A stretch of 27,418 nucleotides of DNA from an uncultured Clostridium sp. GTDB lineage: Bacteria; Bacillota; Clostridia; Lachnospirales; Lachnospiraceae. Under the pieces are notes generated by a model. The model searched no databases, was not told the origin of the DNA, and saw only the letters and a list, made by a program, of their open reading frames with translations. The stretch lies in the NCBI GenBank assembly GCA_900538475.1, contig UPYT01000029.1:1-27418 (forward strand), read 5' to 3'. Shown piece after piece: positions 3,969 to 27,418 of this stretch (position 1 is the first letter of the stretch; the number at the start of each line of letters is the position of its first letter). The translations under genes and the position numbers were made by a program.

Positions 3969-3972
3969 GCAA

Positions 3973-4101: not shown

Positions 4102-4138
4102 GATTTTAAGGAATGCATAAATATTTAGTACAAAACAC

Positions 4139-4168: not shown

Positions 4169-4242
4169 TACTTTGCCCGGTTATTTCTACTATAAGATAA
4201 GATACTAAAATACAAACTAAAATAATAAAAAGTATACAAATT

Positions 4243-4361: not shown

Positions 4362-4413
4362 AGAACAAGAAAGAGAGCCAATAAAATTAATAAGAGGGCG
4401 AATATTAAATATT

Positions 4414-4686
4414 ATGAAGAACACTACATCATTAAAAAAGTGGGGAAATAGCATGGGCATTAGACTCCCTAAAAGTATTTTGGAATCCATGGGGATAGAG
4501 GAAGGTGATGTTTTAGAAGTTTCTTTGGAAGATGGAAAAATTATATTAACAAGAAAAAAAACAGTGAAATTTGAATCTTTGCAACATAGACTGGAATTCT
4601 TTTATGGCACTTCACTGGGTGAAATTCAACCACAATATACAGGAGAGGTTGAATTTGGAGTACCAGTCGGAAAGGAATTATGGTAG
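4414..4686 (+). CDS. mazE: MazE-like AbrB-type antitoxin
   Basis: This encodes 90 residues. The N-terminal ~50 residues are a SpoVT/AbrB swapped-hairpin DNA-binding domain (LKKWGNSMGIRLPKSILESM, then EEGDVLEVSLEDGKIIL). The C-terminal tail (KFESLQHRLEFFYGTSLGEI and onward) would wrap and neutralise the toxin. It overlaps the toxin gene by 7 bases, the usual antitoxin-first order. The ribosome binding site is weak and distant (AGAGGG, about 14 bases from the ATG). The reading frame is open 71 codons upstream through the tandem repeats, so a longer, non-canonically started form cannot be excluded. Autoregulation through the upstream palindrome is likely. Confidence 0.88.
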   Translation: MKNTTSLKKWGNSMGIRLPKSILESMGIEEGDVLEVSLEDGKIILTRKKTVKFESLQHRLEFFYGTSLGEIQPQYTGEVEFGVPVGKELW

Positions 4687-5012
4687 ACGGCATTTTCGAA
4701 AAAGGTGACATTGTAATCATTCAATGTACTCCACAAGCGGGGCATGAACAAGCAGGAAAGAGACCAGCGCTAGTTATAAGCAACTTTGTTTATAATAAGT
4801 ATAGCGGTTTTGCGATGGTATGCCCGATAACAAGTACCGAAAGGAAAAGCCCTTTTCATGTTAAGTTGGATAGTAGCACTAAAACCCAAGGAATGATTTT
4901 AGCTGAACAGGTAAAGTCCTTGGATGTGAGGGCAAGAAAAGGTACTTACGCAGAAAAAGCTCCGCAGGAGATTGTAGACGAAGTCGATGAAATAGTGAAA
5001 CAAAGTCTTTAG
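4680..5012 (+). CDS. mazF: MazF/PemK-type mRNA interferase toxin
   Basis: This encodes 110 residues of the PemK/MazF family. Motifs are FEKGDIVIIQCTPQAGHEQA near the N-terminus, KRPALVISN around residue 27, MVCPITST at about 45 and MILAEQVKSLDVRARK at about 77. Length and motif order are normal for an active ribosome-independent RNase. The first strand carries the basic/Gly residues and the PITST loop typical of the active site. It overlaps the antitoxin gene, and a terminator follows directly. Within a phage the pair may stabilise the prophage or act in abortive infection; that role is inferred. Confidence 0.93.
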   Translation: MVDGIFEKGDIVIIQCTPQAGHEQAGKRPALVISNFVYNKYSGFAMVCPITSTERKSPFHVKLDSSTKTQGMILAEQVKSLDVRARKGTYAEKAPQEIVDEVDEIVKQSL

Positions 5013-5023
5013 GTAAGGAATTT

Positions 5024-5047
5024 GAGCCGCCATCGTGCGGCTCTTTT
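5024..5047 (+). terminator. Rho-independent terminator of the mazEF operon
   Basis: GAGCCGC (5024-5030) and GCGGCTC (5037-5043) form a perfect 7-bp stem with a 6-base loop, followed by TTTT. It closes the toxin-antitoxin operon and precedes the terminase ribosome binding site by about 10 bases. Confidence 0.85.
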
Positions 5048-5072
5048 CTATACCCAAAAGGAGGTGAGCCAG

Positions 5073-5510
5073 ATGGCAAAATATGAATACTGGTTAACGT
5101 CGGAAGGCTTGCTGAAATTGGAAGCCTGGGCAAGAAATGGGTTGACGGATGAACAGATTGCCGGAAATGCCGGCATAGCAGTTTCGACACTGTATGAATG
5201 GAAAAAGACATACGTGGAGATTTCGGAGGCCTTAAAAAGGGGAAAAGAGGTAGTGGATATTCAAGTAGAGAACGCTCTCCTGAAGCGAGCCATGGGATAT
5301 TCGTATACGGAAAAAAAGACTGAGAATGGACCGGATGGAAAGAAAGTCACAGTAACAGTGAAAGAAGTTATTCCGGACACAACAGCTCAAATCTTCTGGT
5401 TAAAGAATCGTCGTCCGGATGTGTGGAGAGATAAGCAGGAGATTGAACACGGAGGAAAGATTGGAGGGGTAACGATTGTCAATGATATCCCAAAACCAGA
5501 CACAAGTTAA
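5073..5510 (+). CDS. terS: Terminase small subunit
   Basis: This encodes 145 residues. ATG 5073 is chosen for the AAAGGAGGTG site at 5057-5066; the frame is open to 5022 but that region is the terminator hairpin. An N-terminal homeodomain-like helix-turn-helix (LLKLEAWARNGLTDEQIAGN, then AGIAVSTLYEWKK) recognises packaging DNA. A central helix (GKEVVDIQVENALLKRAMGY) is the usual oligomerisation segment. The C-terminus (PDTTAQIFWLKNRRPDVWRD) is typical of Clostridia phage small terminases. The gene overlaps the large subunit by about 35 bases. Confidence 0.9.
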   Translation: MAKYEYWLTSEGLLKLEAWARNGLTDEQIAGNAGIAVSTLYEWKKTYVEISEALKRGKEVVDIQVENALLKRAMGYSYTEKKTENGPDGKKVTVTVKEVIPDTTAQIFWLKNRRPDVWRDKQEIEHGGKIGGVTIVNDIPKPDTS

Positions 5511-6768
5511 GCTTAGTGAGTTAATAGCGCCTTCTTTTTATGCGCTTCACTGGGATATCGCAGAACATCGGCACACGCACTATAAGCTTTCCGGAGGTCG
5601 TGGTTCTACTAAATCATCATTTGTGTCGGCTGAGGTTATTCTGGGCATGATGCAGGACCCAAAGGCAAATGCAATTGCTATGCGGAAGGTAGGGCGATTC
5701 CTAGAAGAGTCTGTATTCCAGCAGCTTATTTGGGCCATTAATGCTTTGGGCGTATCGGGAGAGTGGAAGATTCGTTATTCTCCGCTGGGACTTACTTATA
5801 TCCCCTTCGGGAACAAAATTATATTCCGGGGAGCAGATGACCCTCAGAAAATAAAATCCGTGAAACTGGCGAACGGATACTTTAAATATATCTGGTTTGA
5901 GGAGCGGGCAGAATTTGACGGAGACAGCGAAGAAAGAACAATACTACAGTCTCTGATGAGAGGTGGACCGGAATATTTTGTGTTCTACTCCTGGAACCCG
6001 CCTAAGTCTATGAATAATTGGGTGAACCAAGATATTCTTCAAGACAGAGAGGATACGCTGCATCACCACAGCGATTATCGGACAGTTCCTCCTGAATGGT
6101 TGGGAGAGCAGTTTTTCTTAGAAGCTGATGCCCTGAAGGAATTAAAACCCAAAGCGTATGAGCATGAATATTTGGGAATTGCAACAGGAACTGGAGGCCA
6201 GGTATTTGAAAATGTTACAGTCCGGACAATTACAGAGGAGGAAATGAATCGATTTGATAGAATCCGCCAGGGTCTTGACTTCGGTTTTGCTGCAGACCCG
6301 GCAGCATACATGAAATTGCATTATGACAGGACGCGGAAGCGTCTTTTTCTATTTGGAGAAATATATGGAGTGAAGCTGGGAAATACCAAATTAGCTGCAA
6401 AAATCCGCAAATATAATCCCTTGAATAAAATAATAACAGCGGATAGCGAAGACCCTCGTGCTATTGATGCGTTAAATGAATTGGGGCTGCGAGTGGTCGG
6501 TGCAAAAAAAGGACCTGGTTCTGTAGATTATGGCATGGAATTTTTGTCTGATGAAATCAATGAGATTATTATAGACCCTAAACGATGCCCGAATGCCGCG
6601 AGAGAGTTTACCAGTTATGAGCTCGACCAGGATAAAAACGGAAATTTTAAAGGCAGCTATCCAGATAGAGATAATCATACTATTGATGCGGTTAGATATG
6701 CCATGGAGGATGATATGACTATGAGAAGAGTAAGGCAGCGGAAGAAATCAGATTTCGGATTACATTAA
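5476..6768 (+). CDS. terL: Terminase large subunit
   Basis: This encodes 430 residues from TTG 5476, well spaced from GGAGGGG at 5463-5469; ATG 5482 is the alternative. The ATPase has a Walker A motif GGRGSTKS (residues 40-47) and a Walker B/catalytic pair IWFEE (139-143). The RNase H-like nuclease has acidic residues in GLDFGFAADP (D268), TADSEDP (D323) and the NHTIDAVRYA segment (H401, D404). It is of the PBSX/SPP1-type phage terminase large subunit group. It cuts concatemeric DNA and pumps it through the portal encoded next. Length is normal and all key residues are present. Confidence 0.97.
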   Translation: MSMISQNQTQVKLSELIAPSFYALHWDIAEHRHTHYKLSGGRGSTKSSFVSAEVILGMMQDPKANAIAMRKVGRFLEESVFQQLIWAINALGVSGEWKIRYSPLGLTYIPFGNKIIFRGADDPQKIKSVKLANGYFKYIWFEERAEFDGDSEERTILQSLMRGGPEYFVFYSWNPPKSMNNWVNQDILQDREDTLHHHSDYRTVPPEWLGEQFFLEADALKELKPKAYEHEYLGIATGTGGQVFENVTVRTITEEEMNRFDRIRQGLDFGFAADPAAYMKLHYDRTRKRLFLFGEIYGVKLGNTKLAAKIRKYNPLNKIITADSEDPRAIDALNELGLRVVGAKKGPGSVDYGMEFLSDEINEIIIDPKRCPNAAREFTSYELDQDKNGNFKGSYPDRDNHTIDAVRYAMEDDMTMRRVRQRKKSDFGLH

Positions 6769-6783
6769 AAGGCGGTGATACGG

Positions 6784-8163
6784 ATGCGCATATATACAAT
6801 GCCGAGAAGTGACTGGGATGAACAGAACCCAAACAAGCAAGCAATACTGACTCTCATTCTGAAGCATCAGAATGAGGTGGAGCGACTGCACAAATTGAAG
6901 CAATATTATGTTGGACAGCATGATATTCTGGGCGAGAACAGAAAAAATAAATTGGTTTGCAATCATGCGAAGGATATTTCGGACACTGCCAGCTCCTATT
7001 TTATTGGCAATCCGATATCATACAATAGTGATGAGGACATCTCCTTGCTTATGGATGCCTTTGAGCAGGCAGGTGCTGATGAGGCAGATGGAGATAATGG
7101 ATTGGATTTATCCATTTATGGATGTGCTTATGAGTATATTTATCCAATGGAGGATTCGACAGCCTTATCTGTCAAAAATCTATCTCCAGAAAACACTTTT
7201 ATGGTCTATGATGACACCATTGAGCAGAAAGAATTGTTTGCAGTGTACTATTATGTCAAAAAAGATGATTCCGATAATCGGAACCCGATATATGTGGCAA
7301 CTGTTCTGACAGCTAATTTAAAGTGGGTTCTTGATATTGAAAAAATACCAGGGCCTCAATCTCTTTTAGAAGAACCGGAGCCACATTATTTTGAACAGAT
7401 TCCGATTGTAGAATATTTGAATAATAAATTGGCTATCGGGGATTTTGAACTGCAAATTCCTTTAATCGATGCGTACAACGCACTGATGAGCGACCGTATT
7501 ACGGATAAGGAACAGTTTATTGATTCTATCTTAGCAATTTACGGCGCTTTGTTGGGAGATCCAGACGCGGTAGATGAAGATGGAAAAACAGCAAAAGAGC
7601 GGGTAAAAGAGGACAAGCTGCTGGAGCTTCCCAAAGACTCAAAGGCAGAGTATCTTACCAGAACCTTTGACGAACAGGGAGTTGAAGTCTTAAAGAAGGC
7701 CATTGAGCAGGATATTCATAAATTTAGTCATATTCCCTGCATGACGGATGAATCGTTTGGAGGGAATGTTTCTGGGGTTGCCATGGAATTTAAACTGCTT
7801 GGCATGGAGAATATCACAAAAATAAAAACCCGGTATTACCGCAAAGGATTGAGAAAACGCATACGGTTATTCACGGCCTGGTTAGAAAAAAGCCGGTCTG
7901 TAAATATCAATGCGGCTGGGATTACTCCTATATTTACGCGAGCACTTCCCAAAAATTTGTTGGAAATCAGTCAGATTGTAGCAAATTTATGGGGCAAGGT
8001 AAGTCGAAAAACACTTCTTTCCCAGATTCCATTTGTGGATGATGTAGACGCAGAGCTGGAGGCAGTGGAAAAAGAAACAGAAGAAGAGGTCAGACAGCAG
8101 CAGGCTCTTTTTGGACTGGGAAGCAACACCTCGCCAGAAGAGCTGGGAGATGTAGATGAATAA
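6784..8163 (+). CDS. Portal protein (SPP1 gp6-like)
   Basis: This encodes 459 residues from ATG 6784, which sits 6-7 bases after AAGGCGGTG; GTG 6775 is three codons earlier. The family pattern is clear: HQNEVERLHKLKQYYVGQHD near the N-terminus, NKLVCNHAKDISDTASSYFI, GNPISY, a long stem region and NVSGVAMEFKLLGMENITKI in the clip/crown part. It ends in an acidic tail and overlaps the MuF gene by 8 bases. It forms the dodecameric DNA channel at the capsid vertex. The size is typical. Confidence 0.96.
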   Translation: MRIYTMPRSDWDEQNPNKQAILTLILKHQNEVERLHKLKQYYVGQHDILGENRKNKLVCNHAKDISDTASSYFIGNPISYNSDEDISLLMDAFEQAGADEADGDNGLDLSIYGCAYEYIYPMEDSTALSVKNLSPENTFMVYDDTIEQKELFAVYYYVKKDDSDNRNPIYVATVLTANLKWVLDIEKIPGPQSLLEEPEPHYFEQIPIVEYLNNKLAIGDFELQIPLIDAYNALMSDRITDKEQFIDSILAIYGALLGDPDAVDEDGKTAKERVKEDKLLELPKDSKAEYLTRTFDEQGVEVLKKAIEQDIHKFSHIPCMTDESFGGNVSGVAMEFKLLGMENITKIKTRYYRKGLRKRIRLFTAWLEKSRSVNINAAGITPIFTRALPKNLLEISQIVANLWGKVSRKTLLSQIPFVDDVDAELEAVEKETEEEVRQQQALFGLGSNTSPEELGDVDE

Positions 8164-10349: not shown

Positions 10350-13300
10350 ATGATAACAGCAGTATTTACAGATAACAGCGACTATGCCCGCGCTACTGGC
10401 CTCTGGCAGTGGGACTACGGGCAGAGGCTACGGATAGAAGGATTGAAACTGCCCGCAGCGGTAGAAATCCATTTCGCCCTGACAGAACAGTCCGGGGATG
10501 CCATTACCCGAGTAGGTACCACCAAGGACGGTGTGACAGAGGTAGTCATCCCGGATAGCCTGTTGGAGAATCAGGCAGCAGGCGCGACCTATGAAATCTA
10601 TGCATGGATCTATCTGGCAGACAAGACATCCGGTGAAACCATCAAACGGATTTCCATGCAGGTCAAGCGCAGAGCAAAGCCGGAAGGGCATGACACACCA
10701 GAGGATGCAGAACTCTTCCGGGATGCCATTGCGCAGGTGAACGCATCTGCAGACCGGGCAGAGACAGCGCGAGAAGGAGCCGAAGCCGCTCAGGAGGCAG
10801 CGGAAGCAGCAGCCGGTAAAATTGAGGGTGAGATTACCGGAGCCGGGCAGATTGCCAAGCAGGTAAAGCAGGATGCGGCAGCAGTTGCGAAAGATAAGCA
10901 GGCAGTCTCTCAGATGGTTACAGAGACCACCCAGAACGCTCAGAATGCAGCCGAAGCAGCACAGGCAGCAGAACGTTCCAGTACCGCCGCGAAGCAAGCA
11001 CAGGCCGCCGCTGAGAGTGCTAAGGCGGGAGCAGATTCAGCCATGAAAGAGGTGGAGCGAGACCGAGTTGAGGTTTCAGAGACCCACAAGGCGGTGGAGC
11101 AGATGCGGGAAGCGGTGGATACTGACCGGCAGGCAGTAGCAGCGGACCGGCGGGCGGTAGAAAATACTGTCACGCAGTTTGGACAGTTTGCTCAGAGCGC
11201 GATTAATGCTGTTGGACAGGCTCAGGAGGCGGCTGTGGGGGCAGTTTCCGCAGAAGGGCAGAGACAGGCCACAGCGGTGCAGCAGGCAGGCACACAGGCA
11301 GTCAGTGACGTTGAAACAGCTAAGGCAAAGGCGGTTCAGGCAGTCACCACAGAGGGTGATACGCAGGTCAAGAGGGTGCAGGATGCGGCTGCTGGAATTG
11401 TGGCTGACCGGGAGCAGATTGCGGCGAATAAAGCCGGAATTGAAGCCCTGCACCAGGGCAAAGCCGATGCCATTGTGGAGACCGCGCAGGGTGAGACCAT
11501 GACCCTGACGGACAGCTCCGACAAATTGTTTGAGGGTCTGAAAGTATTCGGGAAGAGTACGCAGGATGGGACGCCGAGTGTGGAAAATCCAGTGCCGATT
11601 GTGAATGTCGGTGAGAGCGGAAGTATTACGGTTGAGGTGACGGGGAGGAACCTATTCAAGAATTCGCAGCACTCAGCAGGTTTTTATACCGGAGATGTAG
11701 GAAATACAATAAATTCGGTTATGAATGCTGGATATTCATGGGAAGCGGATCTGTCAGTGTTACCCGGTACAGAATTAACATTGAGCGTAATGTCGCCAAT
11801 ACTGTCTAAGTTCCGATTCTTTGTTATTGATAACAACGGGATAATTCTTCTGAAACATGAAGACTATTCTGCTAATAGTATGGACTATACGAATACATTT
11901 ACCATGCCGGAGAATGGTTTTAGACTGTGTGTAAGCGTAATAGAAGTGTCAGCACCAGAAGGCGTTACAATTATGCTTAACATAGGGAATATGGCTTTTT
12001 CGTACGAACCCTACATTGAGCCTCAAACCTTAATCCTCAAAACCCCCAACGGTCTCCCTGGTGTGCCAGTCAGCAAAGACGGCAACTACACTGACCAAAA
12101 CGGTCAGCAGTGGGTTTGCGATGAGATTGACTTGACAAAAAAGAAGTATGTACAGAGGGTGAAAGACTTCATTATCACTCAGGATACTCAGATATCAACC
12201 TCAATGGGTGCTTATGGCGCACCAGAAAAAGATACCATTTTGGCTCGTTATTTAGATAGGACCATTAAAAAAAATGGTACTATTTTATGCCGAGAGTTGA
12301 TACATATTCCAAACTGGAATGTCGATAGTGAATCAGTACATACAACAGAAACCTCTATTGATTTTAGACTTTCAAGAAAAAGACTTGGATTAGGAACAGA
12401 GACAACGGCTGATGAAAATAAAACAGCGGTTCTTAAATTTTTGGAAACAACTCCGCTTCATTGCCTTGTGGAATTAGCTACCCCCATCGAACGCGACCTC
12501 ACACCAGAAGAACTTACCGCTTACGAAGCCCTCCGTACCAACTATCCGACCACCGTTATCACAAACGATGCCGGAGCACACATGGAAGCGACCTATGTGG
12601 CCGATACTGGAAAATACATCCAGAACCTGGAAGAGCGCCTGAATGCCAAGCTGGTGAATATCCAGTCAGCCCTAATTAGTCAGAAAATTTCTGGGGGGGG
12701 TATAAAGGTAACTGACAGTTCGAGGGTGCCGGTTGTGCGGTTTGCCATGTGGGGTAAGACGGAGCAGAGGAAGACGACAGGGAAGAATCTGATTGATATA
12801 AAAGGTGAAATAACCTTTTCAAAAGGAACTTTTGACATAAAAGATAATCTTATTGATTGCACTCTAGCAGACACTTGGGGCGGTAGTTACATTATGTTTT
12901 CCAAGGAGTATCCTGCCGGAGAATATACTTTTTCCGCTGATAAGATGAAAAATGATACAGTGCAAAAAATAGCTATTCTTTTGACCGTAGAACCATTATC
13001 GAATAGCGCGGATGCTTGTGTTTTTAATGATTATTACAAAAAATATCTGATTAAAAATGGCAAGACATTATCCAGAGACATAACATTCAAGGTCGATTCA
13101 CCATTTGAAATTGGTATTCCACTTTCGGGAGATGTTGATGCAGTCGGAGAGACTTTGAGTATAAAAAATATCCAGCTTGAGCGAGGAGTTTCCGCCACTG
13201 CCTATGAGCCTTATTCCGGCGGCTTCCCTTCCCCCTCTCCTGACTGGGAACAGCCCATCGAGATAACCGACCAGCCTGTGACAATCACCGTCAAGGGCGG

Positions 13301-13685
13301 CACAGAGCAGCAGTCTATCACTCTGATACCGCCTCGCCCATTTACCAAGTGGGACAAGCTGGAAAAGGTGGATGGAGTGTGGTGCTGGGTGTATCAGAGC
13401 AAGCATATTCTGTCTTATAGCGCAGAAAGCATCACAGGAGAATATTTTTCCACAACAGGAGAGCTGAGTGCAGGGGCAGAGGTGTATTACAAGGCTTCTG
13501 CACTTGAACTCATCCCCCTCTCCCCATCCGAACAGGACAAACTCAACGCCCTCACGATGTACGCAGGCACCACCGAAGTCACCAACACCGGCGGCTGCAA
13601 CATGGAATTAACCTACACCGTAGATACAAAATCCTATGTAGACAGTAAAATCGCGGCTATCAGCGCCGCAGTATTGGAGGTTTAA
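10350..13685 (+). CDS. BppU-like fibre/baseplate protein with duplicated receptor-binding modules
   Basis: This encodes 1111 residues; GGAGG precedes the ATG. Residues 1-120 form a BppU-type N-terminal beta domain (ATGLWQWDYGQRLRIEGLKL and onward). Residues ~125-360 are an Ala/Gln/Glu-rich coiled coil. Two related beta modules follow, marked GRNLF (~435) and GKNLIDIKGE (~814), each preceded by a strand-rich leader and followed by a jelly-roll-like domain. Each module ends in a helical TPEELTAYEALRTNYPTTVI- or LNALTMYAGTTEVTNTGG-type closing segment. It probably binds cell-surface glycans. Oddities are its location between head genes, higher G+C than its neighbours, and a G8 tract at 12693-12700 within coding frame. 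Confidence 0.85.
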   Translation: MITAVFTDNSDYARATGLWQWDYGQRLRIEGLKLPAAVEIHFALTEQSGDAITRVGTTKDGVTEVVIPDSLLENQAAGATYEIYAWIYLADKTSGETIKRISMQVKRRAKPEGHDTPEDAELFRDAIAQVNASADRAETAREGAEAAQEAAEAAAGKIEGEITGAGQIAKQVKQDAAAVAKDKQAVSQMVTETTQNAQNAAEAAQAAERSSTAAKQAQAAAESAKAGADSAMKEVERDRVEVSETHKAVEQMREAVDTDRQAVAADRRAVENTVTQFGQFAQSAINAVGQAQEAAVGAVSAEGQRQATAVQQAGTQAVSDVETAKAKAVQAVTTEGDTQVKRVQDAAAGIVADREQIAANKAGIEALHQGKADAIVETAQGETMTLTDSSDKLFEGLKVFGKSTQDGTPSVENPVPIVNVGESGSITVEVTGRNLFKNSQHSAGFYTGDVGNTINSVMNAGYSWEADLSVLPGTELTLSVMSPILSKFRFFVIDNNGIILLKHEDYSANSMDYTNTFTMPENGFRLCVSVIEVSAPEGVTIMLNIGNMAFSYEPYIEPQTLILKTPNGLPGVPVSKDGNYTDQNGQQWVCDEIDLTKKKYVQRVKDFIITQDTQISTSMGAYGAPEKDTILARYLDRTIKKNGTILCRELIHIPNWNVDSESVHTTETSIDFRLSRKRLGLGTETTADENKTAVLKFLETTPLHCLVELATPIERDLTPEELTAYEALRTNYPTTVITNDAGAHMEATYVADTGKYIQNLEERLNAKLVNIQSALISQKISGGGIKVTDSSRVPVVRFAMWGKTEQRKTTGKNLIDIKGEITFSKGTFDIKDNLIDCTLADTWGGSYIMFSKEYPAGEYTFSADKMKNDTVQKIAILLTVEPLSNSADACVFNDYYKKYLIKNGKTLSRDITFKVDSPFEIGIPLSGDVDAVGETLSIKNIQLERGVSATAYEPYSGGFPSPSPDWEQPIEITDQPVTITVKGGTEQQSITLIPPRPFTKWDKLEKVDGVWCWVYQSKHILSYSAESITGEYFSTTGELSAGAEVYYKASALELIPLSPSEQDKLNALTMYAGTTEVTNTGGCNMELTYTVDTKSYVDSKIAAISAAVLEV

Positions 13686-18541: not shown

Positions 18542-18936
18542 AATGGGTCTCTGACACGATTTCTGACCTTCTCCCGGTAGCACTTGACTGCGAAATAACC
18601 TGCCAGATGTTCTGGAATATGAGCCTTCCGGAAATTGAGGATACTATAGAAAGCTATGTACGCCAGGAGGAGCGTCAGAAAAAGCAGAACTTACTTTTCA
18701 TTCATTTTGCAGCCAGGGACATTGGACAATATGTAAATCTGGTATTAAACGGAAGCGAGAATGCAGAGCTGAAGGAACTCTGGGATTTCTTCCCGGAATT
18801 ATTTAAGACAGAACAGAAAGAAGCAGAGAAACAGCGCAGGGAACAGCAGCTCGCAGTATATAAGGCGCAGATGAAAGATTTTGTTGCACGCCACAATAAT
18901 AAACAAAAGGAGGTGACAAAGCAATGGAAGGCATAA
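18541..18936 (+). CDS. Tail assembly chaperone, downstream frame (T-like, probably made by -1 frameshift)
   Basis: This open frame (about 131 residues) continues straight on from the gpG-like gene in the -1 frame. It has no credible start codon near its beginning; the first ATG is at 18607, inside a conserved segment. The sequence SDLLPVALDCEITCQMFWNM and SLPEIEDTIESYVRQEER, with a helical basic tail, is typical of the second tail chaperone. A possible slip site is AAG at GTA-AAG-GAA near 18527, which allows Lys tRNA re-pairing on AAA, but no perfect heptamer is seen. It overlaps the tape measure start by 13 bases. Confidence 0.75.
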   Translation, partial: KWVSDTISDLLPVALDCEITCQMFWNMSLPEIEDTIESYVRQEERQKKQNLLFIHFAARDIGQYVNLVLNGSENAELKELWDFFPELFKTEQKEAEKQRREQQLAVYKAQMKDFVARHNNKQKEVTKQWKA

Positions 18937-21900
18937 CACTTGAACGGCTGCAGGTCATCATAGAGGCTTACACAAAGCCATATAGAGATGAACTGGATAA
19001 GGTCAAAAAGCAAACATCTTCTGTCACCTCGCAGGTAGAGTGGCAGACTCAAAAAATGCGAAACTCTTTCCGGAGAGTGGGGGCAGCGGTGGCATCGGTA
19101 CTTGGTACTGGTGCCATCATTGCTTTTGGAAAATCATGCATTGATTTAGGCTCTGATTTGCAGGAAGTCCAAAACGTAGTGGATGTAACGTTTGGTTCTA
19201 TGAATAAACAGGTGGATGCTTTTGCCAAAAATGCTATAACGCAATTTGGGCTTTCGGAATTGACAGCTAAGAAGTATATGGGCACTTATGGTGCAATGGC
19301 AAAATCCTTCGGAATCGTTGGCGAAGCGGGATACCAGATGTCTGCAGCTATTACAGGTTTGACCGGTGATGTAGCTTCTTTCTACAACCTATCCACAGAT
19401 GAAGCCTACACGAAGCTGAAAAGTATTTTTACCGGTGAAACAGAGTCTCTGAAAGAACTTGGCGTAGTTATGACTCAGACAGCTCTTGACCAATATGCCC
19501 TGAATGAAGGACTGGGAAAAACAACACGCACCATGACAGAGCAGGAAAAGGTTCTTCTGAGGTACCGTTATGTCATGAGCACATTGTCGGATGCATCCGG
19601 AGACTTTGCAAGGACCTCCGGCAGTTGGGCGAACCAGACCCGGATTCTGGCGCTGCAGTTTGACAGCCTGCGAGCAAGTATTGGACAGGGACTGATTAAT
19701 GTATTTACGCCGGTAATTCATGTGATTAACACAGTACTGGCTAAAATGCAGACACTTGCAGCATATTTCAGAGCTTTTACAGCCGCTGTATTTGGGGATG
19801 CAAACGGAGGATCTTCCGGTGTGGCAGATTCTATGGAGTCGGCGGCCGGCTCTTCTGGAGCTATGGCGGATAACATGGGAGCTGCGGCTTCCTCAGCGAG
19901 GGACATGAAGAAGAGTCTTGCAGCGTTTGATGAAATCAATAACCTTACCAGTAGTCAGAACGGTAACGGAGGCAGCGGGGCTGCTGGTGGAAATGCAGAG
20001 ATTGATTTTGGTAACGTAAACTGGAATGATGAAACTCTGGTGGAAGAGTTTAAAAAGAAGTTCAATAGTCTGTATGAGATAGGGGAATACATCGGAGATG
20101 TCCTGGAATCCTCAATGGATCGGATTGATTGGGAAAGCATTTACCATAAAGCAGATCATTTTGGAACAGGCCTTGCAGATTTCCTCAATGGATTGATTTC
20201 CCCAGGATTATTCAGTGCGACCGGAAGAACGATTGCCGGTGCGCTGAATACAGCGATTTATGCGGCGCTTTCTTTCGGCGGAGAATTTGACTGGACGAAT
20301 CTGGGGCTTTCTATTGCATCTGGAATTAATGGCTTTTTTGAAACATTCGATTTTGCGGCAGCAGGGCAGACGGTAAACACATTTGCCAACGGCCTGCTGG
20401 ATATGGCTATTTCTGGTGTGGAAAATACAAATTGGTTTTCAGTAGGGCAGAAGATAGGTGATTTCTTTGGAGAATTGGACTGGGGGAAAATACTGGCAAA
20501 AACAGGAAAATTGATTGTTTCTGGAATAGGAGCATCATTGGCAGTATATGCAGGAATGGTGGAAGTATCTCCTATAGAAGCATCAATTCTTGCAGGGATT
20601 GCAGCTTTTCGCTTCCCTGGAGTAGGAAAGATTATTGCGAAAAGGATTGGAGAATCTATATCTGGTGGAATATCCCTAAAAACCATTGTGCTCACAGTTG
20701 GAAGCATGACTCTTTCAGGCGCATCTTTGCCGGCTTTAGATGTGGTAGGAAATCAAATTATGGATTTACTTTCTTCATTTTTGAAAGAATTGATTCCTGA
20801 TTGGGCTTTTGATTTCCTTAGCCATTTAGGCGCAGGAATTTCGCTGGGGGCTGTCGCCGGTTCCTGGTTTCCTGGTGCCGGAACAGTAGCGGGAGCGATT
20901 GTTGGAGGAATTCTTGGAGCGCTGGCAGGCATTAAGATAGATGGGAAGAGCGTCTTAAAAACAATTGGCGATAAAATATTCAATTTTGATATGACAAAGT
21001 TCTTTTTTGAGGAAGCGAAAAAAAGCCTTGAAACGGCTTTTGACGCGGATTCGTTTGGAGAAATTGGATTGAATATTGTCATGGGAATTCTGGAAGGAAT
21101 TGCCGGTGCTATTACGTTTGTGGCTGAACCGTTTGTAGATTTATTTGAATGGATTTATAACGGAATTTGCGATGTATTCGGTATTGCGTCTCCTGCAAAG
21201 GAAATGGAGCCGTTGGGAGAATATATCCTTTTAGGTATTATAGAGGGATTTCGTGGCACTTTTGAAGATTGGACGAAATCTTTGGATGAATGGTTTGATG
21301 ATCATATTGCTCCCTGGTTTACTGTAAAAAAATGGAGTGAACTTTATGAAACCATGAAGTCCCAGATGAAAGAAAAATGGGATGAAACAGTAAAACAATG
21401 GGATTCGGATATTTCTACATGGTGGGAAGATCATGTACTGAGCTGGTTTTCTAAGGAAAAATGGACATCCGGATTGAGTGGTGTAAAAGATGGATTTGAG
21501 GGTGCTTTTTCCGCAGCATTTGATGCAGTAAAGCAGCTCTGGAATCGATTTGCAAATTGGCTTAATGAAAAGCTGAATTTCGATATTGACCCGATAGAAA
21601 TTGGCGGAATTCGTGTTTTTGATGGCGCTGAAATCAATTTAGGAAAAATCCCAACCTTTGCATCAGGAGGGTTCCCTGCAGCTGGGCAGTTATTTGTTGC
21701 CAGAGAGCGCGGGCCAGAGTTGGTTGGTCGAATTGGAAGCAGAACTGCGGTAGCCAATAATGAGCAGATTGTAGATGCAGTGGCAAGAGGTGTTTATATG
21801 GCATTAAATGGTTCTGGAACTGATGAAGACGCTCTATATCGAGCGTTCAGGAGGGCTTTAGCAGATGAATCAATCCATGCAGTTTTGGATTCAGAAAGAA

Positions 21901-21968
21901 CCTTCAAGAGGATGCAGAAGCTTGCAAAGGAATATAAGAATCGGACAGGAGTACCTGCTTTTGGATAG
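18924..21968 (+). CDS. Tail tape measure protein
   Basis: This encodes 1014 residues, with AAAGGAGGTG before the ATG. The N-terminal third has the typical helical tape-measure domain (DLGSDLQEVQNVVDVTFGSM, AAITGLTGDVASFYNLSTDE, ESLKELGVVMTQTALDQYAL). The middle holds hydrophobic glycine-rich segments around residues 640-680 (LGAVAGSWFPGAGTVAGAIV) that may cross the host membrane. The C-terminus contains Trp-rich repeats (WFDDHIAPWF and WWEDHVLSWF) and a helix-rich end. Its length implies a tail of roughly 150 nm by the usual length rule, which is only an estimate. No peptidase domain is evident. Confidence 0.96.
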   Translation: MEGITLERLQVIIEAYTKPYRDELDKVKKQTSSVTSQVEWQTQKMRNSFRRVGAAVASVLGTGAIIAFGKSCIDLGSDLQEVQNVVDVTFGSMNKQVDAFAKNAITQFGLSELTAKKYMGTYGAMAKSFGIVGEAGYQMSAAITGLTGDVASFYNLSTDEAYTKLKSIFTGETESLKELGVVMTQTALDQYALNEGLGKTTRTMTEQEKVLLRYRYVMSTLSDASGDFARTSGSWANQTRILALQFDSLRASIGQGLINVFTPVIHVINTVLAKMQTLAAYFRAFTAAVFGDANGGSSGVADSMESAAGSSGAMADNMGAAASSARDMKKSLAAFDEINNLTSSQNGNGGSGAAGGNAEIDFGNVNWNDETLVEEFKKKFNSLYEIGEYIGDVLESSMDRIDWESIYHKADHFGTGLADFLNGLISPGLFSATGRTIAGALNTAIYAALSFGGEFDWTNLGLSIASGINGFFETFDFAAAGQTVNTFANGLLDMAISGVENTNWFSVGQKIGDFFGELDWGKILAKTGKLIVSGIGASLAVYAGMVEVSPIEASILAGIAAFRFPGVGKIIAKRIGESISGGISLKTIVLTVGSMTLSGASLPALDVVGNQIMDLLSSFLKELIPDWAFDFLSHLGAGISLGAVAGSWFPGAGTVAGAIVGGILGALAGIKIDGKSVLKTIGDKIFNFDMTKFFFEEAKKSLETAFDADSFGEIGLNIVMGILEGIAGAITFVAEPFVDLFEWIYNGICDVFGIASPAKEMEPLGEYILLGIIEGFRGTFEDWTKSLDEWFDDHIAPWFTVKKWSELYETMKSQMKEKWDETVKQWDSDISTWWEDHVLSWFSKEKWTSGLSGVKDGFEGAFSAAFDAVKQLWNRFANWLNEKLNFDIDPIEIGGIRVFDGAEINLGKIPTFASGGFPAAGQLFVARERGPELVGRIGSRTAVANNEQIVDAVARGVYMALNGSGTDEDALYRAFRRALADESIHAVLDSERTFKRMQKLAKEYKNRTGVPAFG

Positions 21969-21980: not shown

Positions 21981-22367
21981 ATGGCTACAGCTTTTAAGGG
22001 CTATTTATTGAAGATTAACGGGAGAGAAGTGCCTGTAAAATATATAGCGAGCTATAAATCAACTCCCAATCAGCGGCAGGACCAGGACTCCTATCAGGAC
22101 GTTACCGGACAGCTGCATCGGGAAGTGCTGCCACATACACGAACCAAAATTGAATTAACAACAAAGTATTTGTGGCTGGAAGATAAAATCGTCTTCCAGT
22201 CACTTTTTCCGAATCGTGTAAAGGCATCGGTAACATATTGGAATGATGAAATCAATAATTATTCTTCTGGTGAATTTTATATACCAGATATCACCTACGA
22301 GGTATATCGGGTTGAAGATATGGATATGGAATACAAGCCAATTCGGGTGGCGCTTATAGAATATTAA
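21981..22367 (+). CDS. Distal tail/tail-tip adaptor protein (small)
   Basis: This encodes 128 residues, with AGGAGGGAG upstream. The sequence FKGYLLKINGREVPVKYIAS, HREVLPHTRTKIELTTKYLW, then a strand-rich region ending VYRVEDMDMEYKPIRVALIEY, is the short protein that follows the tape measure and precedes the hub in many Clostridia siphophages. It probably joins the tube end to the hub. I recognise the pattern but no named function has been shown. Confidence 0.75.
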   Translation: MATAFKGYLLKINGREVPVKYIASYKSTPNQRQDQDSYQDVTGQLHREVLPHTRTKIELTTKYLWLEDKIVFQSLFPNRVKASVTYWNDEINNYSSGEFYIPDITYEVYRVEDMDMEYKPIRVALIEY

Positions 22368-22379
22368 TGGGGTGATGTG

Positions 22380-24425
22380 ATGTATGAAGTAAGTGAACAG
22401 TTAAAAGAGCTATACCGCACCGACACAGTGCCTAAAACTATGGTTGCAGAATTTCGGAGGCAAGGAGAGAGTGCTCCATTTTTGACAATTTCAGACAATA
22501 CCCGTTTTTTCGCAATGTCAATAGAAGAATCGTTAAGCAGCGGTGAAAATATAGAGTATGGCAGTTGTGAGGCATCCGAAGTAAAATTAACTGTAAAGGA
22601 TGTCCCAACGAGCATAAAAAACAGCGAAATGACCTTGCGTCAAATAATAGGAGGGCGTACCTTGCCCTTTGGGAAATATGTAATTCAGTCGGTTGAAAAG
22701 CAGGAAAATTCGGAATTCCGAGATATAAAAGGGCTGGATTATATGTCTAAATTTGATATTGATGTTGTCTCGTGGTACAACTCCTTATCATTTCCACTGA
22801 CGCTTCAAGCCTTTCGAGCAAGTTTGTGCGCCTTTGTCGGAGTTGCCGAAAATATCCCGGATTACCTTCCCAACGATAATATGCCGGTACATAAGACAGT
22901 AGATACGCTGGAACTGTCCGGTAGGCAGGTGTTGATAGCCTGTGAGCAGGTTAATGGTTCTTTTGGACATTTTGACAGAAATGGCGTTCTGCAGCATATT
23001 ATTTTACAGCCCAATGACCGCCTGGTGCCGGCTTCGGATTTATATCCATCTTCGGCGTTGTACCCACAGGCCCCAGGCGAGATGAATACGCAGATATACG
23101 ATGAAAGCATCGAGCCACATCTACTTATATCGTGTACCCTGGAAGAATACGCAGTAAAGAGTATTGATAAGGTGCAGATACGTCAGGAGAGCGGTGATAT
23201 TGGCGCTTTATATGGGAATGGCACCAACTGTTATACCCTGGAAGGCAATTTTCTTCTGTATGGAAAGACAGCGGCGGAACTGAATCAGATCGCTATGGGA
23301 ATCTATGGCATGATAAGCGGGCGAATTTATACTCCGTATGAAGCTGAAATCAAGGGCCTGCCATATCTGGAGGTAGGAGACGCGATTCGTTTGGGATTAG
23401 ATGATGATGCGATTGTGTCTTACATCATGAAGCGAACGATGAAAGGGATCTATGCGCTGAGAGATTCTTACAGCGCCACTGGAGAGGAAATCCGGAGCGT
23501 ACAAAGCGATATTAACGCAGATATTACTCAATTGAAAGGGCGAGCTGCATTTCTTGTTAAGAGCGTAGATGAAGTATCTGCGAAATTAATTGATGTAGAG
23601 AAAAATGTGGAGGCTCAGTTAAAGGTAACAGCAGAACAGATATCATCTACAGTCAAGCGCTTATCTGAAGCAGAGTCGTCCATTAAGCAGACAGCTGAAA
23701 AGATTGAACTGAAAGTAAGTAAGGGAGAAATTTCATCCGCCCTTTCTTTAGAATCAGACAAGGTAACATTAACATCCAACAGATTAATCGTTGACAGCAC
23801 CAATTTTAAGCTGGATGAAAACGGGAATGCCTCATTTTCTGGAAATATTACTGCAGGAGCTACGATTACAGGAGCCACAATGAATGCAGGCACTATAAAT
23901 GGTTCGGAAATTAGGATAGGTGTTTTTCGAGCTGAAAACGACGTAATAAGAATGGGTGATTTTTATGTCCTTGGTGACGACAATGGCGTTATTCGTTCCG
24001 AAAATAAAGATATAATTATCCAGGCAGATGGGGGAGAACTTGGCTCTGGAGCAAAAATCCGCGTAAGGAATGGAGATGTAATTTTCGGAAGCGGATATTC
24101 TCTTTTGGAATTATATCGATATGTGCATGGTGGAGGCTGGGAGCCGTGTAGAACATATTCCTGTTCTTCTGATGATTGTGATGATTGTCCTCGATATACA
24201 TGTAGTCAAGGCGATTGTACTGGAGATTGTCCTGATGAGATACCTATTACCTGCGATATTGAGGGTTGTGGCACATATGGCTCTTGCGGCCCATATTCTT
24301 GTGGTGCAGGTGATAATAGTTGCAGTTGCGATGGTGGATATTGTGGAGGCGATTGCGGCGGAGACTGTAGCGGAGAATGCGGCAGCGTATGTTCGGACGG
24401 ATGCGGCCCTGGAGACAGAGGTTAA
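22380..24425 (+). CDS. Tail hub protein with cysteine-rich RiPP-like C-terminal extension
   Basis: This encodes 681 residues from ATG 22380; the preceding in-frame GTG is too close to the GGGGTGAT site. Residues 1-360 are the gp27/gp44-like hub (GRTLPFGKYVIQSVEKQENS and the DYMSKFDIDV region). Residues ~375-460 are a coiled coil, then a triple-beta spike-like stretch (NASFSGNITAGATITGATMN). Residues 590-681 are a separate extension with 19 cysteines, rich in Gly, Asp and Ser. Only five cysteines occur in the first 589 residues. The next gene, nine bases on, is a radical SAM/SPASM enzyme, so the extension is probably its substrate; disulfide or metal binding are alternatives. Confidence 0.9.
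   Translation: MYEVSEQLKELYRTDTVPKTMVAEFRRQGESAPFLTISDNTRFFAMSIEESLSSGENIEYGSCEASEVKLTVKDVPTSIKNSEMTLRQIIGGRTLPFGKYVIQSVEKQENSEFRDIKGLDYMSKFDIDVVSWYNSLSFPLTLQAFRASLCAFVGVAENIPDYLPNDNMPVHKTVDTLELSGRQVLIACEQVNGSFGHFDRNGVLQHIILQPNDRLVPASDLYPSSALYPQAPGEMNTQIYDESIEPHLLISCTLEEYAVKSIDKVQIRQESGDIGALYGNGTNCYTLEGNFLLYGKTAAELNQIAMGIYGMISGRIYTPYEAEIKGLPYLEVGDAIRLGLDDDAIVSYIMKRTMKGIYALRDSYSATGEEIRSVQSDINADITQLKGRAAFLVKSVDEVSAKLIDVEKNVEAQLKVTAEQISSTVKRLSEAESSIKQTAEKIELKVSKGEISSALSLESDKVTLTSNRLIVDSTNFKLDENGNASFSGNITAGATITGATMNAGTINGSEIRIGVFRAENDVIRMGDFYVLGDDNGVIRSENKDIIIQADGGELGSGAKIRVRNGDVIFGSGYSLLELYRYVHGGGWEPCRTYSCSSDDCDDCPRYTCSQGDCTGDCPDEIPITCDIEGCGTYGSCGPYSCGAGDNSCSCDGGYCGGDCGGDCSGECGSVCSDGCGPGDRG
24147..24422 (+). 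other. Cys-rich C-terminal domain of the tail hub (candidate RiPP-like core)
   Basis: The cysteines are at residues 590, 595, 600, 603, 608, 613, 617, 625, 630, 636, 641, 648, 650, 655, 659, 663, 667, 671 and 675. The last six (655-675) are exactly four residues apart (CX3C). Many cysteines are followed within two to four residues by Asp or Glu (CSQGD, CTGD, CGGD, CSGE), the spacing used for Cys-to-Asp thioethers in ranthipeptides such as freyrasin. The domain has almost no large hydrophobic core, so it needs cross-links or metal to fold. Confidence 0.85.
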
Positions 24426-24434
24426 GGAGAATTT

Positions 24435-26288
24435 ATGGAAATTATCATTAACGCAGACAAACGATTATCTGCAATTATGGGGAGCCAGAACTATCTCCCA
24501 TCAACAAAATACAGAAAAATATACTACATTTGCGAAGCTGTTCAGGATGGGGCGGTGCTTTTGTACCACACCCTTACCCGGCAGCTTATTTCTTTGTCGG
24601 AATCAGAGTATCGGGAACCGGATGATGAGCTTATTCGCTTTTTGGTAAATCATTGGTACATGATTCCGGAAACTGTCGATGAGCGGAGCCTGTGTTATTC
24701 TATGATGCAGGCATTTTACTCGAGATATGCTCCACAAAGGTCTGGAAATAGCGGAATTACAGGATACACCATATTTACAACCACGGATTGCAATGCCAGA
24801 TGTCCCTATTGTTATGAAATAGGTCGTCCAAGGATAGCTATGAGCAATGAGATGGCATTGAAAACAGCTGAATTCATTGAAAAAAACCGTGGAAATAACC
24901 GTGTGAATTTAAGTTGGTTTGGTGGTGAACCGCTGTATAGTAGTAAGGTCATCGGGATTATATGCGATTATCTGGCAGCCAGAGATATCCCCTATACTTC
25001 GACAATGATCAGCAATGGTTTTCTCATAAACCAGCATTCGGCAGAGGAAATTTTGGAGCGATGGAAACTTCAGCGAATTCAAATAACATTGGATGGCACA
25101 AGAGAAGTTTATAACAACACAAAGAAATATATCTATGATGACGAAAACCCGTTTGAAAGAGTTCTTCAGAACATAGAATACCTGACCAATATTAAAGTGA
25201 GAGTATCTGTACGAATGAACATTTCTTCGGACAACATAGAAAATCTAAAGGAATTGGTGGCGTTGCTATCAAAGAGGTTTCATGGAAATCAGTATTTCAG
25301 TGCCTATTCTCACCCGATTTTTAATGATTCCGGGGAATTGGAGAAAAGTGAATATGAAGTATTGTGTCAGGCCTGCGTTGACATTCAGAAAATGCTTACA
25401 GAATATGGAATTTCAAACGGAGGAGGACTTCATTCTATAAAATCCTGTCATTGCATGGCTGACAGCGGAAAATCTGTTTGTGTAACTCCAACCGGAATGC
25501 TGACTTTGTGCGAGCATCATAGTGACGATGAATTTGTAGGTTCTTTAGACACTGGAATTATTGACCAGGATACAGTCAATTCATGGAAAGAACGCATAGA
25601 AGAAAAAGAAGAATGCCAGACGTGCTTCTATTATCCGATGTGCGTGAAGCTCAAAAAGTGTGTGACTGGATATGAATGTGATTATGGGATGAAAGTGTTT
25701 TGGGAACAGAATACAAAAAATTCCATGATATCATCTTATCGTTCTTGGTTGCGAAAAAGAAATGCAGCAGAGGCAGCAGAGAAAGAGGTATTAAATACAG
25801 AAAATTCAGAGCCAAGCAATCAGGCGGAAGTGATGGCAATTATATCTGCGGCCAGAAAAGAGGTCGGATATGCTGTTGACGGGAATGTATCAAAATATAT
25901 TGTAGAGACTTTCCGTGGAGATCGCTATAAGCCGTGGTGCATGTCTATGATTAACTGGCTGTTTGAACAGTGCTTTGGGGCGGTCAAGGCAAGACAAATG
26001 CTCTTTCAGGTCAGCGGCTTTACGAATTACTGCTATATGGTTTTTGAAAAGTTTCAGGACGCCCGCAGGACATCTGGAACACCACGGGTGGGAGATTTGG
26101 TTTTCTTTCATATCAATGCGTGGACTGACCATGTAGGTCTTGTTACTGAGATAGAAAATGAACAGATAAAAGTTGTTTCCGGAAATGTGCGTTTGGAAAA
26201 TGGGCAGAATGGAGTCGTTGAGTTATGGTATAGCTTAAATGATGAAAGTATCGTAGCGTTCGGTCATCCAGATTGGAGGGTAGCATAG
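24435..26288 (+). CDS. Radical SAM/SPASM peptide maturase fused to a CHAP hydrolase domain
   Basis: This encodes 617 residues, preceded by AAGGAG. Residues ~20-90 resemble the N-terminal peptide-recognition region of RiPP maturases. Residues ~110-330 are the radical SAM barrel, with the 4Fe-4S motif CNARCPYC (C119, C123, C126) and GGEP (163-166). Residues 338-415 are a SPASM domain with nine cysteines (338, 340, 349, 359, 394, 397, 403, 409, 415) for two auxiliary clusters. A Glu-rich linker (~440-465) leads to a CHAP domain (~466-617) with PWCMS (C502), GDLVFF (553-558), DHVGLV (H566) and SGN (582-584). A possible internal start, ATG 25833, could yield CHAP alone. Known relatives make thioethers; the substrate is inferred. 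Confidence 0.92.
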   Translation: MEIIINADKRLSAIMGSQNYLPSTKYRKIYYICEAVQDGAVLLYHTLTRQLISLSESEYREPDDELIRFLVNHWYMIPETVDERSLCYSMMQAFYSRYAPQRSGNSGITGYTIFTTTDCNARCPYCYEIGRPRIAMSNEMALKTAEFIEKNRGNNRVNLSWFGGEPLYSSKVIGIICDYLAARDIPYTSTMISNGFLINQHSAEEILERWKLQRIQITLDGTREVYNNTKKYIYDDENPFERVLQNIEYLTNIKVRVSVRMNISSDNIENLKELVALLSKRFHGNQYFSAYSHPIFNDSGELEKSEYEVLCQACVDIQKMLTEYGISNGGGLHSIKSCHCMADSGKSVCVTPTGMLTLCEHHSDDEFVGSLDTGIIDQDTVNSWKERIEEKEECQTCFYYPMCVKLKKCVTGYECDYGMKVFWEQNTKNSMISSYRSWLRKRNAAEAAEKEVLNTENSEPSNQAEVMAIISAARKEVGYAVDGNVSKYIVETFRGDRYKPWCMSMINWLFEQCFGAVKARQMLFQVSGFTNYCYMVFEKFQDARRTSGTPRVGDLVFFHINAWTDHVGLVTEIENEQIKVVSGNVRLENGQNGVVELWYSLNDESIVAFGHPDWRVA

Positions 26289-26452
26289 TGTATGAAATAA
26301 CTGAAAAACAGGTCAACAACCTGCAATACATCATCGAACGATTAACAGTAACCGGGCCAGAACAGGGACGATTGCTATATGTTGCTGGGGAAACTTTAAA
26401 GCAGGTACAGTGCCAAAAATGCGGTAATATAAGGGAGGTGGAAGCAAAATGA
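26288..26452 (+). CDS. Small CxxC protein (54 aa)
   Basis: GTG 26288 overlaps the preceding TAG and is eight bases after GGAGGG, so the start is well supported. The product is 54 residues with a helical N-terminus (YEITEKQVNNLQYIIERLTV) and a C-terminal CQKC pair. Its stop overlaps the fibre ATG as ATGA. It could be a small tail accessory protein (structural order) or belong to the maturase module; nothing decides between these. Confidence 0.6.
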   Translation: MYEITEKQVNNLQYIIERLTVTGPEQGRLLYVAGETLKQVQCQKCGNIREVEAK

Positions 26453-27051
26453 CAATCAAAGATTTTGTGGCTTATGTTAAGCAGGCGTGGTATAACAAAC
26501 CAAATACATCCACTCCGGTTGAAGCGTCCAGACTACTGCACATTGAAAACGGGATTAAGGGAAATAGTGATGCAATTGAGAAAATCGCGGCAGCAGTGGT
26601 TAGCCAGATTGTGAATGATCCAGATAAGATTGCTTCGATGGCTGCATTGTTTTCTGTGAATCAGAAAATTGCCCAGCAAGGGGAACAGATCACTAAATTA
26701 AATAGTGATTTCACTAATTTAGGATCATCAAATTTCACCATAACCAAGGATATTCCTGAATTAAAATTATCAGGAAGCGAAAAACGATATACTCGAATCA
26801 TAAAAAATGCCAAAGGTACAGGTATTGATTATGGCACAGTTATCTCTGATTTTAGTGATGGAATAGAAACAAAACTAAATATTCAACAAAAAAATGCAAC
26901 AATAAATGGTCAAAAAATTGTAAAAGTTACCGACTTTGGAGGCGGTATAATAGATTTTGATTCGATTGGCTTTACAAAAGATACAGACGGAAAATTTAAG
27001 CTTCATTTTTACAAGGACGGAACATGGATAGGGAGTATGAAAGGGGCGTAG
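26449..27051 (+). CDS. Tail fibre protein, expressed form with exchangeable C-terminus
   Basis: This encodes 200 residues; GGAGGTGG lies seven bases before the ATG. Residues 1-88 are the constant part: an N-terminal anchor (IKDFVAYVKQAWYNKPNTST), a helical segment (ENGIKGNSDAIEKIAAAVVS) and a coiled coil (QKIAQQGEQITKLNSDF). Residues 89-200 form a beta-rich tip (TITKDIPELKLSGSEKRYTR to GTWIGSMKGA) with lower G+C. The junction at residues 85-89 coincides with a 13-bp sequence repeated in inverted orientation at the end of the opposite-strand cassette. The gene is therefore probably one of two inversion states. It is the likely receptor-binding protein. Confidence 0.85.
   Translation: MTIKDFVAYVKQAWYNKPNTSTPVEASRLLHIENGIKGNSDAIEKIAAAVVSQIVNDPDKIASMAALFSVNQKIAQQGEQITKLNSDFTNLGSSNFTITKDIPELKLSGSEKRYTRIIKNAKGTGIDYGTVISDFSDGIETKLNIQQKNATINGQKIVKVTDFGGGIIDFDSIGFTKDTDGKFKLHFYKDGTWIGSMKGA
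26702..26714 (+). repeat. Inverted-repeat recombination site, left copy
   Basis: ATAGTGATTTCAC occurs here in the + strand, inside codons for Asn-Ser-Asp-Phe of the fibre gene. Just upstream, ATCACTA (26689-26695) and TAGTGAT (26703-26709) form a perfect 7-bp dyad around a 7-base spacer, as expected of a site-specific recombinase binding site. Confidence 0.85.
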
Positions 27052-27065
27052 TTTGCAATCCATAT

Positions 27066-27374
27066 TTACATTTTATTCAAATCGACTTTATACCACCCAG
27101 ACCAGCCTTTCGAATCACTTCCATACCCATTATAAAAATTATAAAAGATACCACTAAGGCTTGTCGGCACAAACTGAACAAAAATCCAGTTATTATCTGC
27201 ATATTTTGTAATAGTAAGTTGACCATAATTACTTGTAGGAATATTTTTTGTGTTAGGTCCAATGCCATATATACCATTCTTGTTTGTTATATCCAAAGCA
27301 TCAGTGATAGGATTTGTTGATATTATAAATGGCAAATATGGAGTATCATTCTTCAGTGTCGTGAAATCACTATA
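27066..27374 (-). CDS. Silent, start-less alternative C-terminus of the tail fibre (inverted cassette)
   Basis: Read on the minus strand, an open frame runs from just inside the repeated site (SDFT) to TAA at 27066-27068. It encodes TTLKNDTPYLPFIISTNPIT, NGIYGIG, YGQLTITKYADNNWIFVQFV, and ends GWSGWYKVDLNKM, the layout of pyocin-knob-like tail-fibre tips. It has no start codon with a ribosome binding site: TAA (27377-27375) lies two codons before the conserved Ser. After inversion, the constant part (88 residues) would join it in frame to give 186 residues. It ends tail-to-tail with the expressed gene, 14 bases apart. Confidence 0.75.
   Translation of the reverse strand, partial: YSDFTTLKNDTPYLPFIISTNPITDALDITNKNGIYGIGPNTKNIPTSNYGQLTITKYADNNWIFVQFVPTSLSGIFYNFYNGYGSDSKGWSGWYKVDLNKM
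27361..27373 (-). repeat. Inverted-repeat recombination site, right copy
   Basis: GTGAAATCACTAT is the exact reverse complement of the left copy at 26702-26714. Over 24 bases (26691-26714 against 27384-27361), 20 match, and the flanking CACT is conserved. The site lies in the same reading phase of the minus-strand cassette. Beyond it (27375-27418) I see no gene that can be called. Confidence 0.85.
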
Positions 27375-27418
27375 TTACTGAGTGGCACAATCAGAAACGT
27401 TCTTTTATGATTATCATG

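Follow-up and report, generated by a model that had tools for sequence, protein, structure and literature searches.

The window analysed here is the whole 27,418-nucleotide stretch of contig UPYT01000029.1 (assembly GCA_900538475.1), which derives from an uncultured Clostridium sp. of the Lachnospiraceae and carries a siphophage-like structural region with terminase, portal, minor head, scaffold, major head, neck and major tail genes. After these head and tail genes, on the plus strand, come genes for a tail length tape measure protein (18924..21968; phrog_1535, E 4.6e-95), a DUF6711 protein (21981..22367; PF20458, E 2.6e-47), a tail hub/spike protein of 682 residues (22377..24425; phrog_18190, E 8.9e-163) and a radical S-adenosylmethionine (SAM)/SPASM enzyme of 617 residues (24435..26288). 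The last two, the hub as candidate substrate and the enzyme as its putative maturase, are the subject of this study. The hub opens with GTG at 22377, and an ATG follows at 22380. In an AlphaFold2 model (predicted local distance difference test, pLDDT, 69.2; predicted template modelling score, pTM, 0.54), the protein consists of a gp27/VgrG-like hub and a beta-spike with an unstructured Cys-rich tail at the end. Fold comparison recovered the gp27/VgrG-like fold for residues ~10-369 (22404..23483), which bears out the identity that a preliminary description of this DNA, made from its letters, had given the protein. The regular strands of a beta-repeat spike were modelled with moderate confidence at residues ~390-468 (23544..23780), and some alignments to injection-system/VgrG spikes extend to residue 468 with a root-mean-square deviation of 11-15.

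The tail (residues 591-682, 24147..24422; pLDDT 30-41) contains 19 cysteines, compared with 5 in the other 590 residues of the hub, and the hypergeometric probability that at least 19 of the 24 fall within the last 92 residues is 1.3e-13. A GGG stretch lies ahead of the first tail cysteine, and six cysteines (656-676) are spaced perfectly as CX3C. Direct counting agreed with the preliminary description on the 92-residue end, its 19 cysteines and the six in CX3C spacing, and equally on the nine bases that separate the hub stop from the enzyme start (GGAGAATTT). By direct reading, a ribosome-binding-like AAGGAG (24424..24429), resembling a Shine-Dalgarno sequence, overlaps the hub stop codon. 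That the tail is chance low-complexity sequence is ruled out by the cysteine enrichment together with the linkage test described below.

The enzyme was identified from PF04055, PF05257 and a structural model (pLDDT 84.7; pTM 0.66). Its N-terminal domain (residues 1-100, 24435..24734) shows strands followed by helices in the DSSP assignment, an order compatible with a recognition element (RRE) for ribosomally synthesized and post-translationally modified peptides (RiPPs), and CteB residue 1 aligns to model residue 29 in a whole-protein comparison. The radical SAM domain (PF04055, 53.1 bits; cut-off 29.5) carries the CX3CX2C cluster motif as CNARCPYC (residues 119-126, 24789..24812). Nine cysteines lie between 338 and 415 (25446..25679), and seven of them (340, 359, 394, 397, 403, 409 and 415), the auxiliary-cluster cysteines of a SPASM domain, are invariant in 19/19 rows of A2, an alignment of fused enzymes that includes the window. 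The preliminary description had read both the motif and the nine-Cys SPASM domain correctly and had overlooked a CHAP/NlpC-type domain fused to the C-terminus (residues ~464-614, 25824..26276; PF05257, 30.1 bits; cut-off 26), whose Cys502 and His566 are likewise invariant in all 19 rows. This part resembles the wall hydrolase LytE and phage endolysins; phmmer of it against the PDB returned nothing meaningful. Other CHAP-fused enzymes are P0002-P0015, P0022, P0035 and P0043, and among stand-alone phage enzymes 14 of the 15 measured have 404-452 residues, the fifteenth (locus L002) having 528. When the fused enzyme was searched in 250 family-level and 392 order-level genomes (overlapping sets; thresholds 1e-60 and 1e-80), five places gave four distinct matches, none CHAP-fused as judged by reading, with no domain search.

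By three measures from profile and fold searches, the enzyme is nearest to CteB, a thioether-forming RiPP maturase, which upholds the SPASM maturase assignment made earlier. It scored below the curated NCBIfam cut-offs of TIGR04463 (rSAM_vs_C_rich; 121.9 against 525 bits), TIGR04334 (100.7 against 600), NF038107 (91.1 against 600), NF047865 (81 against 340), TIGR04115 (CXXX-repeat maturases; 64.9 against 350) and TIGR03906 (41.8 against 453). The enzyme belongs to the broad radical SAM/SPASM maturase kind, outside the curated families compared. TIGR04463 and TIGR04115, of which it is not a member, are among its best profile matches and have, by name, Cys-rich or CXXX targets.

The pairing recurs in other phages. 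A single-sequence scan of viral contigs gave no match; a scan with A2 gave 38 viral-contig loci and, on genome contigs, at least 540 loci, of which the best 80 were taken. Of the 38 viral loci, 16 (L001-L013, L015, L018 and L021) have a SPASM gene behind a gene of tail or fibre type, and so do 3 of the best 80 genome loci (L039, L042 and L101), all three in Lachnospiraceae metagenome-assembled genomes. With the window included, a Cys-rich upstream protein end is present in 19 of these 20 tail-gene loci (as small separate open reading frames in L010), which were picked by reading neighbourhoods and not blind to cysteine; a fairer count is that such an end is found in all 13 best-scoring viral loci (L001-L013). 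No Cys-rich upstream neighbour was seen at the 19 loci inspected among the other 22 viral loci (L029, L032 and L038 stand outside this count), and a nearest-neighbour listing of the other 77 of the best 80 genome loci gave no Cys-tailed hub, several of them having short Cys-containing peptides upstream (e.g., L070, L079 and L102). The preliminary description had paired the Cys tail with the enzyme and missed the recurrence of that pair.

PHROG matches divide the upstream proteins compared into four kinds. The window and L001 match phrog_18190, L003 matches phrog_13589, and L005 and L006 match the phrog_1067/5555 group, to which L101 also matches, its best match being phrog_3558; L015 has a short upstream protein with weak PHROG matches only, in a phage with a P22-type portal. 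Two small modules, A7 and A8, recur immediately before the tail, and several architectures therefore carry the tail as a graft. The Cys-rich sequences of L010, and partly of L002, are separate proteins. L004 and L010 require TAG as a sense codon, and the fibre of L002 requires TGA. Both L004 and L010 are large viral contigs, on which the genes are far more open once TAG is read as sense; the L002 fibre gene (1-7026) contains 8 TGA codons in frame, which by eye occupy Trp-like positions, and in this phage TGA may code for an amino acid. The SPASM enzymes of L005 (7971-9293) and L012 (7812-9152) themselves terminate in CGVC.

Joint presence of tail and enzyme was assessed at loci found without an enzyme query, through the hub alignment A4 (26 loci), A7 (15) and A8 (17). 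Of these 58, seven in which downstream sequence was lacking or the hub end was open (L120, L138, L141, L142, L225, L226 and L228) were excluded, and L021 was set aside, which left 50. Hubs were divided at a threshold of 3 Cys in the last 100 residues, and the enzyme motif was sought within 3 kb: 11 of the 12 hubs at or above the threshold have it, and 0 of the 38 below it (Fisher 3.2e-10); the clustered count was 8/9 against 0/22 (1.1e-6). The twelfth locus, L144, has three scattered cysteines and no tail. The 11 positives were already known from the enzyme scans, because the module queries derived from those contigs, and what is new is the negative arm and the absence of any Cys-tailed hub without the enzyme. 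The preliminary description had proposed a search for co-occurrence: Cys tails and enzyme are jointly present or absent, and the observation that it had named as refuting, a Cys-rich-tailed hub without a radical SAM gene, was made at none of the 50 informative loci. Spacing is also narrow, with the CX3CX2C motif beginning 303-333 nt past the hub stop in 11/11 Cys-tailed loci and 363 nt past it in the window.

Among 250 genomes of the L039 family, the hub was found in seven, and L039's own genome is the only one with Cys tail and enzyme; the pieces examined from the other six, some incomplete, contained neither. Empty sites give the same picture. L241, which has no cysteine tail and no enzyme, shares 44-51% hub identity with L235 and L236, which have both, and the first 147 and 96 residues of its next gene are 82% identical to theirs. 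In L235 and L236, the enzyme sits between hub and next gene. L224 shows the same pattern against L218 and L219 (hub 66-69%, next gene 67-68%), and L223 against L217 is a weaker case (next gene 25%).

Tails and hub bodies have been exchanged. Among the best 120 of 852 hub homologues, the last 100 residues contain 4 or more Cys in 23 proteins and fewer in 97, and an S74-chaperone-like motif (PF13884) lies close to the C-terminus of 67. Over the first 340 residues, P0124 matches the window hub at 99% identity yet has a different 26-residue Cys tail, whereas P0128 is 40% identical over the same stretch with a tail that is 89% identical and keeps 19/19 Cys; P0122 keeps 17/19 Cys in a tail of 70% identity on a body of 95%. 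Such swapping of tail and body would be expected of a recognition module. Hubs trade the tip as a cassette, and its role therefore most likely lies in host recognition or first wall contact. A search with the tail alone returned five protein clusters, all of them homologous to the hub.

Pooled, 20 tails consist of 20.1% Cys, 18.8% Asp, 17.6% Gly and 12.0% Ser. In a positional test on 17 less redundant tails with 5000 shuffles, Asp or Glu was over-represented at Cys+3 (61 observed against 36.5 expected, reached in 0/5000 shuffles), was not over-represented at Cys-3 (32 against 36.3) and was under-represented at Cys+2 (26 against 37.1). The Cys+3 signal kept z of at least 3.9 whichever tail was left out, and by tail 9 favour +3, 3 favour -3 and 5 are tied. 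A Gly-Pro motif (CGPGD, CGPDD, CYGPGW, YGPGGV or DGPGC) recurs at or near the C-terminus of the tails of the window, L001, L004, L005, L006, L009, L010, L021 and P0175; it is possible that this motif is a recognition signal for the enzyme.

We consider it probable that hub and enzyme form a phage-encoded tail-tip maturation pair, in which a hub with a RiPP-core-like tail is served by a SPASM cross-linker. Comparison gives good support to the view that the enzyme acts on the hub tail, and we infer the tail to be its substrate; the likeliest chemistry is thioether cross-linking, probably of Cys to Asp or Glu. The gp27/VgrG-like spike would present its C-terminal tail to the adjacent enzyme, which would bind the hub via the RRE-like N-terminal domain and abstract hydrogens from acceptors, most likely the Asp or Glu three residues past a Cys, such that sulfur-carbon cross-links form. 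A floppy Cys/Asp/Gly tail would thereby become a rigid polycyclic tip. We further infer that this happens ahead of virion assembly, that the swapped tip most likely serves host recognition or first wall contact, and that the fused CHAP domain hydrolyses peptidoglycan in lysis or entry. As the pairing is found in other, quite different phages, phages may therefore chemically harden or shape their own tail tips. We lean towards the wider view that several tailed-phage lineages, TAG-recoded ones included, own a mobile spike-tip maturation cassette, a grafted RiPP-core-like tail with its own SPASM enzyme, which would yield a polycyclic, swappable receptor-binding or piercing tip.

Known systems share parts of this arrangement. 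CteB/CteA and other SCIFF-ranthipeptides (PDB 5wgg, 5why) use a short precursor peptide; here we found no short dedicated precursor with a leader, and the candidate substrate is the end of a 682-residue virion hub. The window enzyme differs also in its fused CHAP domain. PapB is reported to link Cys to an Asp or Glu that comes after it, to accept CXnD with n = 0-6 and to leave the reversed order unprocessed (PMC9413430). The freyrasin pair PapB/PapA resembles the window pair in its repeated Cys-Xn-Asp/Glu units with Cys first and differs in having CX3D where our tails have an excess of CX2D/E; the window enzyme scores 81 bits against a cut-off of 340. QhpD, in the cited portion of its description (PMC8326336), joins Cys to Asp or Glu within quinohemoprotein amine dehydrogenase, and those thioethers, like the ones proposed here, lie in a protein and not in a released peptide; QhpD is not from a phage, and the window enzyme falls far below its cut-off (41.8 against 453 bits). 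The window hub shares its fold with gp27/VgrG/Mu gp44-type hubs with variable C-termini; what sets it apart is a Cys-rich extension together with a paired radical SAM gene.

Some observations weigh against cross-linking of Cys to Asp or Glu by a dedicated enzyme. L021 (2525-4537), the sole exception among the 20 tail-gene loci, has a SPASM gene, truncated at the contig end, beside a Ser/Asp/Gly-rich hub tail whose last 100 residues hold 2 Cys; if counted in the linkage test, it would place one enzyme-positive locus in the low-Cys row. Its tail ends in CGPGDGL, as does that of L005. The Cys+3 signal is also partly a consequence of the four-residue Cys repeat. The enzyme might instead form alpha-thioethers (sactionine) or carry out epimerisation or other C-H chemistry on the tail, with cysteines held in disulfides or bound to metal as in PAAR-type tips, but its proximity to CteB by three measures and the directional Cys-x-x-Asp/Glu excess make this unlikely. 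A second alternative treats the tail as a genuine RiPP precursor that, once modified, is severed (perhaps by the papain-like CHAP domain) and set free as a diffusible peptide, e.g., against rivals or in superinfection. This would account for the invariant catalytic Cys/His of the CHAP fused in the window clade, the GGG before the first tail cysteine and the separate Cys-rich proteins of L010 and partly L002. We regard it as quite improbable, given that 14/15 stand-alone phage enzymes, at 404-452 residues, are too short for CHAP and the tail therefore occurs without it, that the tail is mostly the C-terminus of a large tail protein, and that CHAP resembles LytE and endolysins. Least credible is the reading in which the radical SAM gene serves as metabolic cargo (a moron) and lies beside the hub by accident. 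Earlier phage radical SAM genes, in CP220 and phiPDS1, were treated as metabolic or signalling in the portions of the reports cited here (PMC2853527, PMC10773633), but the constant motif spacing, the joint presence or absence of enzyme and Cys tail and the empty sites already contradict such a reading for this pair.

Returning to the maturation pair, we placed its enzymes in a 71-row tree, of arbitrary root and with long branches for L003 and L010, whose cellular rows come from the best 80 of at least 540 genome loci only. A branch with 96/100 support separates 28 cellular rows, 6 unknown-context rows and L002 from 18 fused, 16 phage and 2 unknown-context rows, and all phage rows except L002 therefore stand apart from the sampled cellular rows. 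The L002 enzyme looks like a separate acquisition. An enzyme match was present in 74 GenBank phage records, and nine of these (H1-H5, H7, H8, H10 and H25; L202-L209 and L211) contained no Cys-tailed hub, most of them resembling radical SAM genes of cellular origin on faecal scaffolds that lack annotation; H6 (Enterococcus phage IME_EF3, 2782 bases), H9, jumbo-phage matches and others were left out. Three other phage-type enzymes, searched against the same collection of 50,697 phage records, found one record covering at least 80% of the query, at 25.4% identity; as judged by sequence, they have no close relative there. The whole annotation of Parabacteroides phage PDS1 and the surroundings of one radical SAM match in Campylobacter phage CP220 show no annotated SPASM gene beside a Cys-rich-ended tail gene, protein cysteines not being checked in either. 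Among the papers listed from open-licence full-text literature (preprints and most subscription journals lie outside it), no title or abstract opening presents a phage tail protein as a substrate of a radical SAM enzyme. On the wider view above, which we hold somewhat likelier than not, radical SAM chemistry would mature a class of virion structural proteins, the first of its kind within that literature.

If this is true, RiPP-type radical chemistry finishes a virus particle instead of making a released peptide, and does so at the particle's first meeting point with the cell wall. Phage radical SAM genes of a so far unexplained group would gain a function, gut phages would be seen to have an exchangeable tail-tip module of a new kind, and naturally evolved scaffolds would become available for the display of cross-linked peptides. 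L021, with a Ser/Asp tail in place of Cys, is a natural test of what the enzyme requires.

Some features lie apart from this pair. L035 (6821-11778) and L036 (6877-11909) each have three radical SAM genes and, downstream, a Cys-rich protein of 188-189 residues, in which a CNCNYCxCNCNF-type repeat, matching phrog_26958, is followed by SDERLK, which we take to be S74-chaperone-like. This protein had no match among phage records, and the two loci are perhaps a second, different radical SAM/virion-protein system. In the window, a minor tail or fibre protein is encoded downstream of the enzyme (26449..27051, plus strand; phrog_2012, E 3.9e-11), followed by a fibre-like reading frame on the minus strand (27066-27335, by eye). 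Inverted repeats lie near these genes (26691-26714/27361-27384, 24 nt, 83%; 27059-27076/27325-27342, 18 nt, 83%), and 26449-27418 is possibly an invertible fibre cassette. Amid the head genes, a 1111-residue reading frame (10350-13685) has an N-terminal part that resembles phrog_16164.

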